Made by a program: the position numbers and the translations under genes. 64,000 bases of DNA from Kaistella soli (GTDB taxonomy: Bacteria > Bacteroidota > Bacteroidia > Flavobacteriales > Weeksellaceae). The notes beneath the pieces were generated by a model. That model was not told the origin of the DNA. It ran no database searches and saw nothing but the letters and a program-made list of their open reading frames with translations. Location of the stretch: contig NZ_JAHOPF010000005.1 of NCBI RefSeq assembly GCF_019038595.1, positions 62,001 to 126,000 of the forward strand. Direction: 5' to 3'. Below, in pieces: positions 28,627 to 33,608 of this stretch. The first letter of the stretch is position 1, and each line of letters starts with the position of its first letter.

Positions 28627-29054
28627 ACTTTGACCGCCTGCTTTCTGTAATAAAACAAAGGTATAATCAGAAGTAAAATCAACGGCTGAATCACAAATCT
28701 CCGCATGTAAAAGGAAAAAAGATAGCCAATTTCGAATTTTGTGCTCACCGCATAAAGATAAAGCGGGAAGGTTACTGCAAAAACGATCAGCATTAAAACA
28801 ACTGCCTGAACTGTCCATTTTGTGTTTTTAAATATAAAATGAACAATAAGCGCCGACAAAATTAAGTTGAGAGAGAATCTGAACAGATGATTTAATATCA
28901 GTTTAAACCATTCAAAATCCGGGAACTGAGCATCTTTGTTCGCGAAATGAAAATATTCAAGAAAAGGATCGTAAAAAATTTTGTCTTCCGATATCCGGAC
29001 GCCAATTAATCCAAGAACTCCTAAAATTACAATAATCCAGTTAAGAATTTTCAT
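28623..29054 (-). CDS. Exosortase F system-associated membrane protein
   Basis: A 143-residue protein with four predicted transmembrane segments, from MKILNWIIVILGVLGLIGVR to the C-terminal FVIQPLILLLIIPLFYY. It matches in size and context the small membrane protein encoded beside xrtF in Flavobacteriales. The ATG at 29054 overlaps the end of xrtF by 14 nt, so the two are translationally coupled. Its role is unknown; it may be a chaperone or subunit of the exosortase. It converges on the CDF gene, sharing the stop-codon bases. Confidence 0.8.
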   Translation of the reverse strand: MKILNWIIVILGVLGLIGVRISEDKIFYDPFLEYFHFANKDAQFPDFEWFKLILNHLFRFSLNLILSALIVHFIFKNTKWTVQAVVLMLIVFAVTFPLYLYAVSTKFEIGYLFSFYMRRFVIQPLILLLIIPLFYYRKQAVKV

Positions 29055-29583
29055 GCGCGGTTTCTTTTGTTGCGAAAAATTTAATCCAGACGATCCAAAG
29101 CAGCACAACACTTCCGTAGATAATTGCCGGAAAAAAATAATCGTGTCCTATTTTTGAATATTTCGGCAGTTCTACCAAAACTACGTTCAATCCCGCGATC
29201 CTTAACACATTGATAACGTGAAGGAATAATAATCCTAAGCCTACAAAAACAAAAGTTTTGATTCCCTGATAAAAAGCGAAAATAAATGCAAGAAAAAGGA
29301 TCATCACCGATATTGCGTTGCAGCCTTCCACCATGCGCGAAACAAATCTTCCGCTCACGTAAAACCAGGAAGTTTCCTGTTCAGGTTTTCCCGGAACCAT
29401 CTGGGACGGATAACCAAAGAGATTCTGTAAAAAAGCCGCCTGATCAGATACCCATCTTGAAACGGGATCCAAACCTGAATTCTGGTACTGATTTAAATAA
29501 AACTGATAGGCAAAAACCAACACCACATAAATGATGATAAAACGTAAAAGAATTTTCAGAACAGGCTTGAAATCATTGAACAT
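29041..29583 (-). CDS. xrtF: Exosortase family protein XrtF
   Basis: A 180-residue polytopic membrane protease/transpeptidase of the exosortase/archaeosortase superfamily. The catalytic residues are recognisable: Cys88 in VEGCNAISVM, Arg128 in INVLRIAGLN and His147 in IGHDYFFPAIIYG, each in a transmembrane context as in other exosortases. These enzymes process proteins bearing C-terminal sorting tails; no such target gene is visible nearby. It lies directly upstream of, and overlaps, its partner gene, and its own -7 box is exactly 4 nt from the ATG. It is divergent from the kinase at 29635, with only 51 bp between them. Confidence 0.9.
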   Translation of the reverse strand: MFNDFKPVLKILLRFIIIYVVLVFAYQFYLNQYQNSGLDPVSRWVSDQAAFLQNLFGYPSQMVPGKPEQETSWFYVSGRFVSRMVEGCNAISVMILFLAFIFAFYQGIKTFVFVGLGLLFLHVINVLRIAGLNVVLVELPKYSKIGHDYFFPAIIYGSVVLLWIVWIKFFATKETAHENS

Positions 29584-29587
29584 ATTG

Positions 29588-29595
29588 CAAATATA
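29588..29595 (-). promoter_or_regulatory. -7 box of xrtF
   Basis: On the minus strand it reads TATATTTG and ends exactly 4 nt before the ATG at 29583. Confidence 0.45.
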
Positions 29596-29619
29596 ATGTT
29601 TTAAAAAGTTCTATTTTCT

Positions 29620-29627
29620 TATATTTG
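29620..29627 (+). promoter_or_regulatory. -7 box of the AmgK-like kinase gene
   Basis: TATATTTG ends 7 nt before the ATG at 29635. With the xrtF box it forms a compact divergent promoter pair in a 51-bp gap. Confidence 0.45.
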
Positions 29628-29634
29628 TAAAAGT

Positions 29635-30654
29635 ATGAGTATGGAAAACGCAAAACTTTTTTTCAGCGAATTTATTGGCGAAAAACCAAAGGATTTTTAT
29701 TCTTTAGCGCAAAGCGGTTCCGCGAGACAGAATTTTGTCGGCAACAGTTCCAGAGAAAAATACATCATCACTTTCAACAAGAATATTCCGGAAAATGAAA
29801 GTTTTTTCTATTTCTCACAGGTTTTTTCCGAATTAGATCTCAATATTCCGAAAATTTTCAAAATCTCTGAAGACCGTAAATTATATATTCAGGAATTTTT
29901 AGGAGAGAATACTTTATCAGAAATCATTCAAAAAGAAGGACTTTCCGAAAGAGTACAGTCTTTGGTAAAGCAAACTCTCCAAAAACTTTTTGAACTCCAA
30001 TCCAAAACAGATCACAAAATTGATTATTCGAAAACTTTCGAATACGAAAGTTATGACGAACTGCCAATCAGTAATGATTTGTTTTACTTCAAGAATTTTA
30101 TTGCTGACATTTTGGAAATCCCTTATCACAAATCTTCTTTATTGAAAGAATTTAAAAAACTGACCGAGAAACTTGAAAATTCAGAACCGAAAGGCCTGAT
30201 GATCCGCGATTTTCAGTCAAGAAATATAATGATTAACGGAAAAGATGAAGTCTTTTTTATCGATTATCAGTCGGCAATGAAAGGACCGTTGATGTATGAT
30301 GTTATCTCTTTTCTTTTTCAGGCAAAAGCAAATTTCAGCGCCGATTTCAAAGAGGAAATGCTGAACTATTACTTTTCCCTCTGGAAAGATGAAGAGAGCG
30401 TTGAAAAACTAAAGCTTTCGGTAAAACCACTTCAGCTGATCCGTTTCATGCAGGTTTTGGGCGCATACGGTTTCCGTGGACTTATTCAGAAGAAGACGCA
30501 TTTTGTAGCAAGCCTTAGCTTAGGAATCGAGAATCTATACCAATTTTCAAATACCTGGGAAGAGATGAAAAGTTTTCCTGAACTCAGAAAAGTGATCGGT
30601 GACCTGACATCGGATTCAATTCAGAATAAAATTAAAATGATTTTGAACCATTAA
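29635..30654 (+). CDS. Aminoglycoside-phosphotransferase-fold sugar kinase, AmgK-like
   Basis: A 339-residue APH/choline-kinase fold protein. The catalytic loop is MIRDFQSRNIMI (Asp192, Asn197) and the metal-binding segment is VFFIDYQSAMKGP. AmgK phosphorylates MurNAc/GlcNAc at C1 in the peptidoglycan recycling route first described in Pseudomonas. Assignment rests on fold, the RDFQSRN loop and the MurU-like nucleotidyltransferase two genes downstream. A role in aminoglycoside resistance is unlikely. The start could also be the ATG at 29641. The stop codon TAA (30652-30654) lies inside the left arm of an inverted repeat that bounds the inserted GxxExxY gene. Confidence 0.82.
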   Translation: MSMENAKLFFSEFIGEKPKDFYSLAQSGSARQNFVGNSSREKYIITFNKNIPENESFFYFSQVFSELDLNIPKIFKISEDRKLYIQEFLGENTLSEIIQKEGLSERVQSLVKQTLQKLFELQSKTDHKIDYSKTFEYESYDELPISNDLFYFKNFIADILEIPYHKSSLLKEFKKLTEKLENSEPKGLMIRDFQSRNIMINGKDEVFFIDYQSAMKGPLMYDVISFLFQAKANFSADFKEEMLNYYFSLWKDEESVEKLKLSVKPLQLIRFMQVLGAYGFRGLIQKKTHFVASLSLGIENLYQFSNTWEEMKSFPELRKVIGDLTSDSIQNKIKMILNH

Positions 30655-30674
30655 GAAATTAAGATAATTAAGAA
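30646..30674 (+). repeat. Left arm of insertion inverted repeat
   Basis: Built from tandem units ending in TTAAG: AACCATTAAG, AAATTAAG, ATAATTAAG. Its first 18 bases match the reverse complement of the right arm with one mismatch, and the rest match with one single-base shift. Confidence 0.85.
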
Positions 30675-30682
30675 CTAAAAAA

Positions 30683-31093
30683 ATGTTAATCACCAAAAAA
30701 CAAGTAACTCAATTGTCTTATGACATTGCAGGCTTAGCAATCAAAGTTCACAAAAATCTTGGTCCCGGTTTATTGGAAAGCATATACGAAACATGTCTCA
30801 AATATGAATTGGAAAGAAATGGTTATACGGTTAAACAGCAGGTAATTGCAAACATTGTGTACGATGGGTTATTAATTGAAACACCATTAAAACTTGATTT
30901 ATTGGTAAATGACTTAGTCGTCGTAGAGTTAAAAACCGTTGAGGAGATTAAGCCAGTTCATCAGGCACAACTGTTAACATATATGAAAATACTCGAAAAA
31001 CCACAGGGTTTATTAATTAATTTCTTTACAGATAATATTATAAAATCGATGAAGCCTTTTGTAAACGAATATTTTACAGCCCTATCAGAATAA
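30683..31093 (+). CDS. GxxExxY family protein (PDDEXK-like nuclease fold)
   Basis: A 136-residue protein with the family-defining Gly29-x-x-Glu32-x-x-Tyr35 motif (GPGLLESIYETCL). A PDDEXK-type core has Asp72 (LKLDLLVND) and Glu82-Leu-Lys84 (VVVELKTVEEI), as in restriction-like nucleases, so metal-dependent nuclease activity is plausible but unproven for the family. No signal peptide. It lies on the same strand as its operon neighbours but is bounded by 29-nt inverted repeats, and the flanking genes belong together functionally. It is therefore best read as cargo of a small insertion rather than an operon member. Its biological role is unknown. Confidence 0.85.
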   Translation: MLITKKQVTQLSYDIAGLAIKVHKNLGPGLLESIYETCLKYELERNGYTVKQQVIANIVYDGLLIETPLKLDLLVNDLVVVELKTVEEIKPVHQAQLLTYMKILEKPQGLLINFFTDNIIKSMKPFVNEYFTALSE

Positions 31094-31122
31094 TCTTAAT
31101 TTTCCTTAATTCCTTAATGGTT
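31094..31122 (-). repeat. Right arm of insertion inverted repeat
   Basis: Starts directly after the GxxExxY stop codon. Its reverse complement begins AACCATTAAGGAATTAAGG, matching the left arm 17 of the first 18 bases, followed by AATTAAGA shifted by one base. Confidence 0.85.
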
Positions 31123-31147
31123 AAAAATAAAAATAATAAAATATTAA

Positions 31148-31558
31148 ATGAGTCTTACCATAGAAATACACAGCTTTTCCTACAAGAAAGGCGGAATCCC
31201 AAAAGACAGCAGCGGTAACGGAGGCGGTTTTGCTTTCGACTGCCGCGGAATCCTGAATCCGGGAAGAATTGAGGAATACAAGCAGCAAACCGGATGCGAC
31301 ATTGGTGTCCAGGATTATCTGGAAACCAAAACTGAAATGCCGAATTTTTTAGAGCTGGTGAAAAGCATCGTTTCTATTAATATCGACAACTATTTGAGCA
31401 GAGGTTTTGAACACCTTCAGATTAATTTCGGATGCACCGGCGGCCAGCACCGCTCAGTATATTCAGCAGAAAAAACGGCGGAATTTATCCGTCACAAATA
31501 TCCTCAAACCAACGTAAGCATCCATCACGACGAACAACCACAACTGAACGGCGGATAA
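31148..31558 (+). CDS. Stand-alone RapZ C-terminal-domain protein
   Basis: A 136-residue protein equivalent to the C-terminal half of RapZ/YvcJ, without the N-terminal nucleotide-binding half. The core motif INFGCTGGQHRSVYSAEK (Gly95-Lys109 region) is nearly identical to the RapZ signature, preceded by the FDCRGILNPGRIEEYK segment corresponding to FDVRFLPNP. In E. coli this domain binds glucosamine-6-phosphate and controls GlmS amino-sugar synthesis through an RNA adaptor role. Placement between AmgK-like and MurU-like genes hints at sensing of an amino sugar in cell-wall recycling. That functional link is inference. Confidence 0.85.
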   Translation: MSLTIEIHSFSYKKGGIPKDSSGNGGGFAFDCRGILNPGRIEEYKQQTGCDIGVQDYLETKTEMPNFLELVKSIVSINIDNYLSRGFEHLQINFGCTGGQHRSVYSAEKTAEFIRHKYPQTNVSIHHDEQPQLNGG

Positions 31559-31619
31559 CTGGCAATGAGTAATATTTAATTGATCATTTCCGCTTTATCA
31601 CCTGTTACCCTATATAAAA

Positions 31620-32333
31620 ATGAAGGCACTTATATTCGCAGCCGGAAAAGGCACCAGACTGAAACCGTTTACGGATCATCACCCAAAAGCACTTGCGGTG
31701 GTGAATGGCGTTCCGCTGCTGGAAAGAAATATAAAATTTCTTCAAAGCTTCGGAATCAATGACTTTGTAGTAAATATTTACCATTTTGGCGGTCAGATTG
31801 TTGACTTTTTAAAAAGAAATGATTGTTTCGGCGCTAAAATTGAGTTCTCCGACGAGCGCGATGAACTTCTTGAAACAGGCGGAGGCTTGGTTTTTGCAAG
31901 AAGATTTCTGGACCATGGAGAAGACTTTCTCATTATGAATGCTGATATCCTTACAGATCTTGATCTGAACGCATTTGTAAAATATCATAAGGAAAAGAAA
32001 GATTTTGCTACTTTAGCTGTATCGGATAGAAAAAGTTCCAGAAAATTACTTTTCAATTCCGAAATGATCCTTCGCGGCTGGCTGAATGTAGAAACCGGAG
32101 AACAGCGGCTTGCGGAATTCAACAAAGGATTCAAACCATTAGCATTCAGTGGAATACACTGTATTAATCCTGAGATATTTAGTAAAATAAAAAGGACAGG
32201 AAAGTTTTCGATTATGGAAGAATATCTGGATCTGATGCATACCGAACAGATTCATGGCTATGAGCACCAGGGAATCCTTATCGACGTAGGAAGACCGGAA
32301 TCGGTGCTGGAAGCCGAGAAAATATTTAAATAA
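31620..32333 (+). CDS. Sugar-1-phosphate nucleotidyltransferase, MurU-like
   Basis: A 237-residue NTP_transferase of the MurU/RmlA fold. The N-terminal pyrophosphorylase signature FAAGKGTRLKPFTDHHPKAL starts near residue 6. FLIMNADILTDLDL carries the metal-binding Asp, and the last part has FSGIHCINPEIF and GILIDVGRPESVLEAEKIF, close to MurU. Together with the AmgK-like kinase at 29635 it could convert MurNAc-1-P to UDP-MurNAc, bypassing de novo synthesis. The RapZ-C gene is 61 bp upstream and a LOG-family gene 6 nt downstream, so all should be co-transcribed. Confidence 0.87.
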   Translation: MKALIFAAGKGTRLKPFTDHHPKALAVVNGVPLLERNIKFLQSFGINDFVVNIYHFGGQIVDFLKRNDCFGAKIEFSDERDELLETGGGLVFARRFLDHGEDFLIMNADILTDLDLNAFVKYHKEKKDFATLAVSDRKSSRKLLFNSEMILRGWLNVETGEQRLAEFNKGFKPLAFSGIHCINPEIFSKIKRTGKFSIMEEYLDLMHTEQIHGYEHQGILIDVGRPESVLEAEKIFK

Positions 32334-32339
32334 GATTAA

Positions 32340-33098
32340 ATGAAGAAAATACCGAGAGGCAAAGGAACCACGAAAGCAGCGGCAGGAAACGAACTGGAAA
32401 TCGACCAGAAAGTACAGCGTTCTTTCACTGAAAAAACCTGGGATGAGACGATCTCTAAGGACAGCTGGATGGTTTTTAAAATCATGGCCGAATTTGTTGA
32501 CGGCTATGAAAGGCTTGCGAAAATCGGTCCGTGTGTATCCATTTTCGGCTCGGCAAGACTTGCTCCTGAAAGCGAGTATTATCAGATGGCGGTGGATATC
32601 GCCGAAAAAATTACAGAAATCGGTTTCGGTGTAATAACCGGCGGCGGTCCAGGAATCATGGAGGCCGGCAATAAAGGCGCAAATAAGGGCGGCGGCAAAT
32701 CCATCGGACTGAATATTGAACTTCCTTTTGAACAGCATTTCAACCCTTTTATCGACAAAGGTTACAGCATGGATTTTGACTACTTCTTCGTCAGAAAAGT
32801 AATGTTTGTAAAATATTCCCAGGGATTCATTGTGATGCCGGGCGGCTTTGGGACGATGGATGAACTGATGGAAGCAATGACTTTAATTCAAACCAATAAA
32901 ATCGGAAAATTTCCTATCGTTCTGGTAGGGTCGAAATTCTGGAGCGGACTTTTAGATTGGTTTAAAGGAACTTTACTGGAAAACGGAATGATTTCTGAGC
33001 AGGATTTGAGCCTTTACCGCATTGTGGATACTGCTGACGACGCAGTAGCTCATATTCAGGCATTTTACGATAAATACACTGTGAATGTGAACTTTTAA
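32340..33098 (+). CDS. LOG-family Rossmann-fold protein (TIGR00730-like)
   Basis: A 252-residue protein with the lysine-decarboxylase-like/LOG fold. It contains CVSIFGSARLAPES, GFGVITGGGPGIMEAGNKGA and the signature PGGFGTMDELMEAMTLIQT (PGGxGTxxE). LOG enzymes are nucleoside-5'-monophosphate phosphoribohydrolases that release free cytokinin-type or purine bases in plants and some bacteria. The substrate here is unknown. An N-terminal basic extension of about 40 residues precedes the domain. It begins 6 nt after the MurU-like gene, probably as the last gene of that operon. Confidence 0.88.
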   Translation: MKKIPRGKGTTKAAAGNELEIDQKVQRSFTEKTWDETISKDSWMVFKIMAEFVDGYERLAKIGPCVSIFGSARLAPESEYYQMAVDIAEKITEIGFGVITGGGPGIMEAGNKGANKGGGKSIGLNIELPFEQHFNPFIDKGYSMDFDYFFVRKVMFVKYSQGFIVMPGGFGTMDELMEAMTLIQTNKIGKFPIVLVGSKFWSGLLDWFKGTLLENGMISEQDLSLYRIVDTADDAVAHIQAFYDKYTVNVNF

Positions 33099-33137
33099 TT
33101 GGCATCATATTTGAGATTACAACAAAACATAAAAGAA

Positions 33138-33608
33138 ATGAAAAAGTTTTTACATATAGGAGGAATTTTTGTACTGATGATAATGATGAGTTTTGCTGTA
33201 GCAGACTTCTATTCATCGATGACAAAAGTAGATTATGTGGAAGGAAGCAAGACCCTGAAATTTACGACTAAAATGAATACTCAGCATATTTCTGACGCCA
33301 TCAAAATCAACCCGAACACAGCAGGGTTTGAAGCGGAAGTAAAGAAGTATGTGAACAATAATTTTGATCTGTACGTCAACGGAAGTCCCAAAACCCTTAC
33401 TTTCACAGGAAGCCAGGTTAACGGAGAATCTGTCTGGGTTTATTTTGAAACCGGCGGTGTGACCGAAATTAATTCAATAAGAATTAAAAATACTATTTTG
33501 CTCAGCACTTTCCCGAAACAGTTTAATTTAGTAAACATCGCTTACAAAGGAAATCAGAAAACAATGAATTTTCAAAGAGGAAAAGAAGTTAATGAGGTCA
33601 ATTTCTAA
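33138..33608 (+). CDS. Exported DUF6702-like protein
   Basis: A 156-residue protein with a signal peptide or single anchor (MKKFLHIGGIFVLMIMMSFA). The mature domain of ~130 residues is beta-rich: FYSSMTKVDYVEGSKTLKFT is followed by YVNNNFDLYVNGSPKTLTF and a terminal FQRGKEVNEVNF. Size, the opening YSSMTKVDY and the closing segment resemble the DUF6702 family of periplasmic proteins in Bacteroidetes; this match is from memory and only moderate. The ATG at 33138 puts the signal sequence at the N-terminus. No partner is evident. A very strong terminator follows 47 nt downstream. Confidence 0.7.
   Translation: MKKFLHIGGIFVLMIMMSFAVADFYSSMTKVDYVEGSKTLKFTTKMNTQHISDAIKINPNTAGFEAEVKKYVNNNFDLYVNGSPKTLTFTGSQVNGESVWVYFETGGVTEINSIRIKNTILLSTFPKQFNLVNIAYKGNQKTMNFQRGKEVNEVNF

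Follow-up and report, generated by a model that had tools for sequence, protein, structure and literature searches.

A GxxExxY gene in the genome of Kaistella soli lies between two long inverted repeats in the spacer of a host operon, and the question that this locus raises is what kind of unit the gene and its repeat arms make up and what the encoded protein acts on. We analysed a 64,000-nucleotide stretch of this genome (NCBI RefSeq assembly GCF_019038595.1, contig NZ_JAHOPF010000005.1, positions 62,001 to 126,000 of the forward strand), which we call the window and whose numbering is used throughout. The GxxExxY unit is well supported as a compact hairpin-bounded genetic element, in both its anatomy and its class. 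As for the activity of the protein, a nuclease acting on the DNA of its own arms is the most likely of the readings that we weighed, and we hold it with a little less than even confidence.

The initial annotation had placed 29-nt inverted repeats immediately outside the GxxExxY gene, with the stop codon of an AmgK-like gene inside the left arm and genes for a RapZ C-terminal domain and a MurU-like protein after the right arm. This layout is borne out by the repeat search and the open reading frames (ORFs): the AmgK-like ORF stops at 30654, within the left arm. The inverted-repeat search delimits arms at 30631-30663 and 31105-31137 (33 nt, 82% complementary) and an inner pair at 30656-30669 and 31089-31102 (14 nt, 93%), and weak complementarity runs on for a few bases beyond the 29-nt arms. 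The arm core, ACCATTAAGNNATTAAG, occurs exactly at 30647 (+ strand) and 31105 (- strand) and has no other exact match in the window; when 3 mismatches are allowed there are 6 window matches, against a mean of 2.96 in shuffled sequence, with 7 of 100 shuffles reaching at least 6. When 30631-31140 is folded as RNA, the arms are paired in both the minimum free energy (MFE) and the centroid structure, and the MFE stem closes the whole gene (z -2.08; equalled in 1 of 100 shuffles). An RNA hairpin had been proposed for this unit, and the arms are indeed predicted to form one, with a stem of 31 pairs by dot-bracket count. The GxxExxY gene is the sole ORF of at least 60 aa in the AmgK-RapZ spacer, the unit is flanked on both sides by protein genes and not by 16S or 23S ribosomal RNA (rRNA) genes, and no Rfam family was matched in 29000-33200.

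Arms of this kind are found around most GxxExxY genes of the genus. Our genus sample comprised 36 genomes, 33 with a GxxExxY match and 3 without; we analysed 92 copies whose matches are nearly full-length, leaving aside weak ones and shorter fragments. Each copy was given an inverted-repeat score, the best between its two 260-nt flanks. The median score was 26, and 72 of the 92 copies scored at least 20, compared with 1 of 92 for far flanks. In a swapped-flank control 109 of 920 swaps reached the same score, a figure inflated because swaps could pair same-site copies of different genomes. A different-site swap was therefore used, and a stricter core score of at least 13 was reached by 63 of the 92 genus copies versus 32 of 736 such swaps. 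The source genome itself holds three GxxExxY genes above the family cut-off, plus a fourth, weak match. The other two strong copies are armed as well, with different sequences (AACCACAAAGTCACAAAGG, 39 nt, 77%; TACCGCAAAAGAGACAAAAGA, 21 nt, 95%), and within this genome the exact arm core is confined to the present locus, with 2 matches. Two further observations concern the source genome. At L004 (C17:29451-29684), a GxxExxY-like match of 33.5 bits, under the cut-off, lies in a 337-codon open frame and is possibly a larger relative; at L007 (C15, ~67.2-68.1 kb), inverted and direct repeats of the AACCACAAAG type (130, 90 and 46 nt) have no gene between them, part of the region being N.

By flank similarity, the 92 copies fall into 26 sites; one of these groups spans two locations within a genome (L140, L141), and another joins two unlike proteins (L055, L102). 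Taking the majority at each site, both neighbours are codirectional with the GxxExxY gene at 23 of the 26 sites, two sites being '--' and one '-+', whereas both neighbours are codirectional for 29 of 60 ordinary window genes (p=2e-5 against the window-gene rate and 3e-8 against random insertion; the counts use longest open frames as genes, of which a few may be wrong). The sense orientation within the host operon that had been described for this locus is therefore usual across the genus. In the spacer that at L003, in the source genome, holds a ACCGCAAAAG-type GxxExxY element, a gene-less ACCATTAAG hairpin is found at L308 (G001:C3:101457) and L318 (G024:C1:420048), so that by eye different element families share one spacer.

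Left and right arms of the same element are matched to each other. For 30 elements at the RapZ site, the mean own-arm pairing was 19.03, compared with 14.50 (standard deviation 0.74) after shuffling, and none of 5000 permutations reached it, although the mixture of element subtypes in this set contributes to the signal. Across 11 genus sites with 73 elements, own-arm pairing was 16.42 versus 15.10 shuffled (1 of 5000 permutations). To the eye, arm type also tracks protein type: KIHRKLGIGLYE goes with CGCAAAGGCGTTTCACTCAGCGAAGG, EIHNYLGFGFSE with GCCACGAATGCACGAATT, and the IKVHKNLGPGLL of this locus with AACCATTAAGGAATTAAG. The impression that arm sequence is a strict clade label was dropped, the correlation of arm with protein likeness across sites being just rho 0.18 (26 sites, one copy each; reached by 5 of 2000 permutations). 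Among different-site pairs with at least 50% protein identity, 12% of 642 had an arm score of at least 13, compared with at most 1% of less similar pairs. Many arms are built from a short tandem unit. Arms of at least 17 nt often show an 8-9-nt repeat unit, significant at p<0.05 in 22 of 62, with a best shift of 8 or 9 in 39 of 62, which indicates that the structure is real for many arms and not for all; autocorrelation over plain 40-nt windows gave nearly no tandem-unit period.

The gene and its arms also occur together at a second site. The locus protein was compared with 320 genomes of the family, 96 of which matched at E<=1e-30. Among the 30 best family loci, 28 were at the AmgK-RapZ-MurU site and 2 at a suf site. 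Beyond these, 17 new loci were read (2 at the RapZ site, 15 elsewhere) and the 2 suf loci were re-fetched with wider flanks; all 17 non-RapZ copies lie between SufB and SufC (the neighbours of L213 are SufB and SufC by NCBIfam). The 17 suf-site copies group as a single clade, separate from the 30 RapZ-site copies (support 0.99), their arms are near-identical to RapZ-site arms (for example TTTAAACATTAAG and TTTAAACATTAAGAARTTAAG), and two genomes, G211 and G207, carry the element at both sites. A sister clade with near-identical arms at another site indicates that on at least one occasion the gene moved with its arms. At L226 (G264:C1), the left-arm region, with an apparent end of the upstream gene, is tandemly repeated several times.

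Arms are likewise found without the gene, so that relatives carry both of the forms for which the initial annotation had suggested searching. The exact arm core has 37 matches in 13 of the 36 genus genomes, versus 3 for a reversed control pattern, and at most 8 in any one genome, diverged copies not being counted. Gene-less short hairpins lie at G006:1441851/1441914, G006:2327553/2327633 and G017:1528408/1528487. The flanks of the first are separated by 11-22 nt in G007, G008, G010, G017, G030 and G035, by 51 nt in G003 and by 196 nt in G001, the G006 insert being composite. Outside the RapZ site there are 22 core matches in the 11 genomes with an intact or broken member of the clade, against 6 in the 25 genomes without one (p=0.003, with pairs and tandem copies counted repeatedly and relatedness uncorrected). 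A second dispersed repeat family lies beside a gene-less hairpin at L329:1682-1859 (G006), with several copies in G006 that are 69-90% identical and shorter copies in related genomes.

At the RapZ site, empty, gene-less and broken alleles stand beside intact ones. The gene is intact in 7 of the 36 genus genomes (G000, G006, G008, G011, G017, G020, G029), broken in 4 (G001, G010, G022, G035) and absent from 25. Of these 25 gene-less sites, 12 have arm-like hairpins or remnants by eye, those in G003, G004 and G024 being weak, and 13 are short spacers. G008 also carries a truncated second copy at this site. The same gene and arms are therefore not fixed at one position in all relatives, the arms have other copies, and empty sites exist. 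The description of the unit as a self-contained element holds as anatomy, given the second site, the gene-less arms and the empty and relic alleles; recent transposition is not supported.

Gene and host trees strongly reject each other (31 loci, 5000 resamplings, where the program advises 10000), and in several cross-genus pairs the element is more alike than the host proteins. These results first suggested homing, but the idea that elements had recently spread horizontally at this site was set aside, since synonymous sites are saturated in many pairs and the protein is simply conserved; of the suggestive pairs only G008/G017, described below, is retained. We compared fourfold sites in 18 RapZ-site pairs, in most of which, beyond those given here, they were saturated. 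Host and element identities agree in G192/G183 (58/53%), G089/G117 (89/87%), G210/G090 (63/63%) and G227/G225 (89/92%) and differ somewhat in G234/G236 (87/80%), G226/G225 (85/98%) and G006/G035 (47/62%), with 35-40 element sites. In the sister species G008 and G017, 176 of 216 host fourfold sites are identical (81%), versus 10 of 29 in the element (34%); the GxxExxY proteins are 69% identical, compared with 90, 97 and 97% for three host genes, and flank identity is 88-98%, drops at the AmgK end and recovers at RapZ. By this comparison the pair appears to be one clear element replacement. On the whole, then, the element seems to be passed on vertically in the main and at times lost, and to have undergone replacement or differential loss at least once.

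The protein has the features of a nuclease. It matches TIGR04256 with 132.5 bits (cut-off 35) and PF13366 with 127 bits (cut-off 22); TIGR04256 is the sole NCBIfam model matching at E<=0.001, and no S23 or four-helix-bundle model does so. G27, G29, E32, Y35, E42, D72, K84 and Y100 are invariant among 17 aligned GxxExxY proteins, and E82 is kept in at least 90% of them; we take these residues to be the catalytic core of a nuclease. GxxExxY proteins show the pattern D...ExK...(Q)xxxY, in which Q is not invariant. The top fold match of the AlphaFold model (predicted local distance difference test score 95.9) is 4ic1 (SSO0001; Foldseek E 1.1e-3, VIA Z 8.5, root mean square deviation 3.9, 102 aligned), presumably a Cas4 nuclease. 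It is followed by Wolbachia CinB chains (Z 7.4) and by small restriction-like proteins and SwaI (7.2-6.9), with Hjc resolvases lower (Z 6.5 and below), tRNA-splicing endonucleases also among the lower matches, and lambda exonuclease in the Foldseek list. A Z near 8 may possibly reflect just a common fold arrangement, and no sequence relative was found in the PDB at E<=1. In line with the 4ic1 match, weak matches to Cas4 models were obtained (PADLOC Cas4, E=9.5e-6; CRISPR-associated PHROG, 0.0057), and for the two proteins scanned only Cas4-type PADLOC models matched at E<=0.1. The profile matches and the modelled nuclease fold agree with the PDDEXK-like family to which the protein had been assigned. 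Among same-subtype RapZ-site copies the nonsynonymous divergence (dN) is 0.06-0.10, and between subtypes 0.20-0.27, while the synonymous divergence (dS) has reached saturation in 12 of 15 pairs and exceeds 2.9 in the other 3. This low dN despite saturated or high dS indicates that the protein is under strong constraint by purifying selection.

The arrangement extends beyond the genus. GxxExxY matches are present in 186 of 395 sampled genomes of the source phylum. A set of named copies, the best 80 of 584 confirmed loci from a pattern-based search of genome contigs, is mostly from Bacteroidota and also spans Cyanobacteria, Planctomycetota, Chloroflexota, Verrucomicrobia, Acidobacteria and others; 5 copies with too-short flanks were dropped. 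Arms scoring at least 14 were found in 43 of 75 named copies and were typically ACCGCAGAGACGCAGAG or CACGCAAAGGCGCAAAG; the far-flank control reached this score in 2 of 59 cases and the swap control in 67 of 750. Both neighbours are codirectional in 46 of 70, with 10 '+-', 8 '-+' and 6 '--'. Judged from these sequences, the recurrence in related and distant bacteria points to a widespread small genetic element. A passage of PMC8934634 names a GxxExxY-family domain in passing. In a literature search that lacked most subscription journals, no description of a hairpin-bounded GxxExxY element was found, and among the matches listed for the arm strings, again with most subscription journals outside the scope, there was no work on bacterial repeats.

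A second gene family of the genus has the same layout. Four-helix-bundle genes (TIGR02436, which we take to be the S23 family of rRNA intervening sequences, IVSs) are present in 36 of 36 genus genomes. From a set of 30 loci, 28 were scored, L149 and L158 having been dropped on a frame check; the inverted-repeat score is at least 20 in 17 of 28, versus 0 of 28 for far flanks, and 26 of the 28 have codirectional genes on both sides. The arms of these genes consist of different short repeats (TTAGAAGTTAGA, GTGAACTTGTGAAC). A four-helix-bundle gene and a GxxExxY gene are separated by no more than 1-2 kb at G031:C1:924344/925874, G031:C2:135293/136390, G035:C2:65781/67742 and G018:C15:457663/459111, as if certain operons collect both kinds.

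We propose that the unit, sitting in sense in an operon spacer, would be expressed from the host transcript, and that its PD-(D/E)XK protein would recognise its own arm DNA, either in the form of duplex repeats or after extrusion as a hairpin. The nuclease would cut the arm DNA, and host repair would then copy or restore the element, giving a homing- or REP-like persistence (REP, repetitive extragenic palindromic). The arms would fold in RNA, where the hairpin is probably what makes the insert tolerable to the operon, and RNase III perhaps cuts it, as in rRNA IVSs. Spread seems rare today, with old insertions inherited, broken, lost and sometimes replaced. The matched arms give GxxExxY, a widespread family without known function, a testable substrate, and they are a possible reason for its scattered presence. 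We also put forward, as a tentative generalisation that we rate well below an even chance, that GxxExxY genes are a multi-phylum class of hairpin-bounded, sense-in-operon elements in which each clade recognises its own arms, often made of 8-9-nt units, that S23/four-helix-bundle genes are a sister class outside rRNA, and that rRNA IVSs are one special case.

Several results weigh against the proposal of an element that persists through a nuclease acting on its own arm DNA. At the suf site (15 elements) own-arm pairing is not above permutation (1529 of 5000), and at several genus sites own arms pair no better than cross pairs. The arm-to-protein association across sites is weak, and arms are below threshold in 20 of the 92 genus copies and 32 of the 75 named copies. 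The four RapZ-site pairs whose fourfold sites agree fit mostly vertical descent, and G008/G017 could be a differential loss of tandem copies, given the truncated second copy in G008. Near-identical copies at different sites were not found among the 92 genus copies; the closest within-genome pair, L140/L141, is 84.6% identical and so too old to fix the exact ends of the element. Target-site duplication was not seen at empty sites, which are old or composite; those identified for sites 6 and 8, and also for two gene-less hairpins, are real, yet of this same kind. The locus protein matched no phage record and just 5 among 72,556 plasmid records, and thus no vehicle is apparent. Current mobility of the unit is weakly supported. 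What the sequences show is the architecture, its association with the gene, the orientation, the matching of the arms, the second site and the allele states; the substrate, the part played by RNase III and the way of copying are inferred.

The strongest competing explanation is an IVS-like RNA element, in which the arms act mainly in RNA, the hairpin is cut by RNase III or by the encoded protein, and the target is RNA. The stem that encloses the whole gene, the sense orientation at 23 of 26 sites and the shared layout of the S23/IVS-family genes (17 of 28 armed, 26 of 28 codirectional) all fit this explanation. So do passages of PMC4990558, which describe S23 proteins encoded in some rRNA IVSs and a Coxiella IVS that has complementary borders and is cut out by RNase III. 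However, most of the better fold matches are to DNA nucleases, the sense bias is also expected from a gene that merely lacks a promoter, and the dispersed gene-less hairpins and the second site point to copying at the DNA level. We consider such an RNA element unlikely, if still worth serious weight.

We give a similarly low probability to a resident host gene, that is, a GxxExxY gene domesticated long ago, for example as a repair nuclease, in an immobile unit whose arms are mRNA-stabilising or insulating hairpins. Such a gene would account for vertical descent in the four checked pairs, strong purifying selection, the 28 of 30 best family loci at the RapZ site, and the lack of a phage match together with so few plasmid matches (5 of 72,556). 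It is harder to reconcile with a RapZ site that is intact in just 7 of 36 genomes, broken in 4 and lacking the gene in 25, with the 3 of 36 genomes that have no GxxExxY match at all, and with near-identical arms that go with the clade at a second site. A defence or toxin-antitoxin module, whose nuclease attacks incoming DNA and is controlled by the hairpin RNA or DNA, seems to us improbable: the weak Cas4-model similarity and the patchy presence would suit it, but just Cas4-type PADLOC models matched at E<=0.1 for two proteins, the spacer has no further ORF of at least 60 aa, and housekeeping genes flank both sites. It is very improbable that the gene is unrelated to its arms and that these are inverted repeats by chance or ordinary terminators, for although the sequence is AT-rich and the 3-mismatch pattern is only mildly above shuffles (6 versus 2.96), the far-flank and swap controls and the 37 exact core matches versus 3 in the control disfavour this reading.

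The features of the locus are collected in Table 1.

Table 1. Parts of the hairpin-bounded GxxExxY unit and its neighbouring genes, in window coordinates.
Feature	Position	Strand	Basis
AmgK-like sugar kinase gene, upstream host gene	29635..30654	+	ORF; PF01636 and weak AmgK models
Left arm, AACCATTAAG-AAATTAAG-ATAATTAAG, repeated short TTAAG units	30646..30674	+	Repeat search, RNA fold
GxxExxY gene, 136 aa, PD-(D/E)XK nuclease family	30683..31093	+	ORF; TIGR04256, PF13366
Right arm, imperfectly complementary to the left arm, directly after the GxxExxY stop codon	31094..31122	-	Repeat search, RNA fold
Whole hairpin-bounded unit, ends approximate	30640..31130	.	Inverted repeat and RNA fold
RapZ C-terminal-domain gene, downstream host gene	31148..31558	+	PF22740
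MurU-like nucleotidyltransferase gene	31620..32333	+	NF045761 148.9 bits, under its cut-off of 250

The unit shares features with several known systems. In REP elements with their associated tyrosine transposases (RAYTs), a single nuclease gene is accompanied by palindromic repeats, copies without the gene occur elsewhere, and the repeat type is related to the gene type; the GxxExxY unit resembles them in all three respects. It differs in that its gene matches PD-(D/E)XK families and fold and not a tyrosine (HuH/Y1) transposase, its copies are far fewer, and the two arms of one element enclose the gene, with hundreds of bases between them. Homing endonuclease elements have a single nuclease gene and a site at which alleles are intact, broken or empty, and the unit shows the same, with at least one probable allele replacement; unlike them, it has no intron or intein, has long inverted arms, and has a sister clade at a second, unrelated site. 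With miniature inverted-repeat transposable elements (MITEs) and small insertion sequences it has in common terminal inverted repeats, gene-less derivatives and empty sites, but it has no known transposase, no target duplication was seen, its sense-in-operon bias is strong and its insertions are mostly old. PMC4596501 describes a Porphyromonas MITE with internal tandem repeats and mentions neither GxxExxY nor a nuclease.

Among nucleases, the protein is most like the Cas4/RecB type, in its best fold match, 4ic1, and in its D...ExK...(Q)xxxY pattern. We assume four cysteines holding an Fe-S cluster to be a feature of Cas4; the single cysteine in the 136 aa means that the GxxExxY protein has no such cluster, and its spacer contains no CRISPR genes. 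The likeness to rRNA IVSs concerns the whole unit: a short ORF is closed by complementary ends into one long hairpin, in sense with the host transcript, and presence is sporadic, with ORF decay and fixed sites. The unit differs from an rRNA IVS in lying in a protein-operon spacer and in encoding a PD-(D/E)XK nuclease, not an S23 four-helix bundle. The resemblance to IVSs noted in the initial annotation thus stands for the closing stem and for the layout common to S23/IVS-family genes, and fails for location and ORF type. The S23/IVS puzzle, we suggest, reaches beyond ribosomes, to a general class of hairpin-bounded elements tolerated inside operons.

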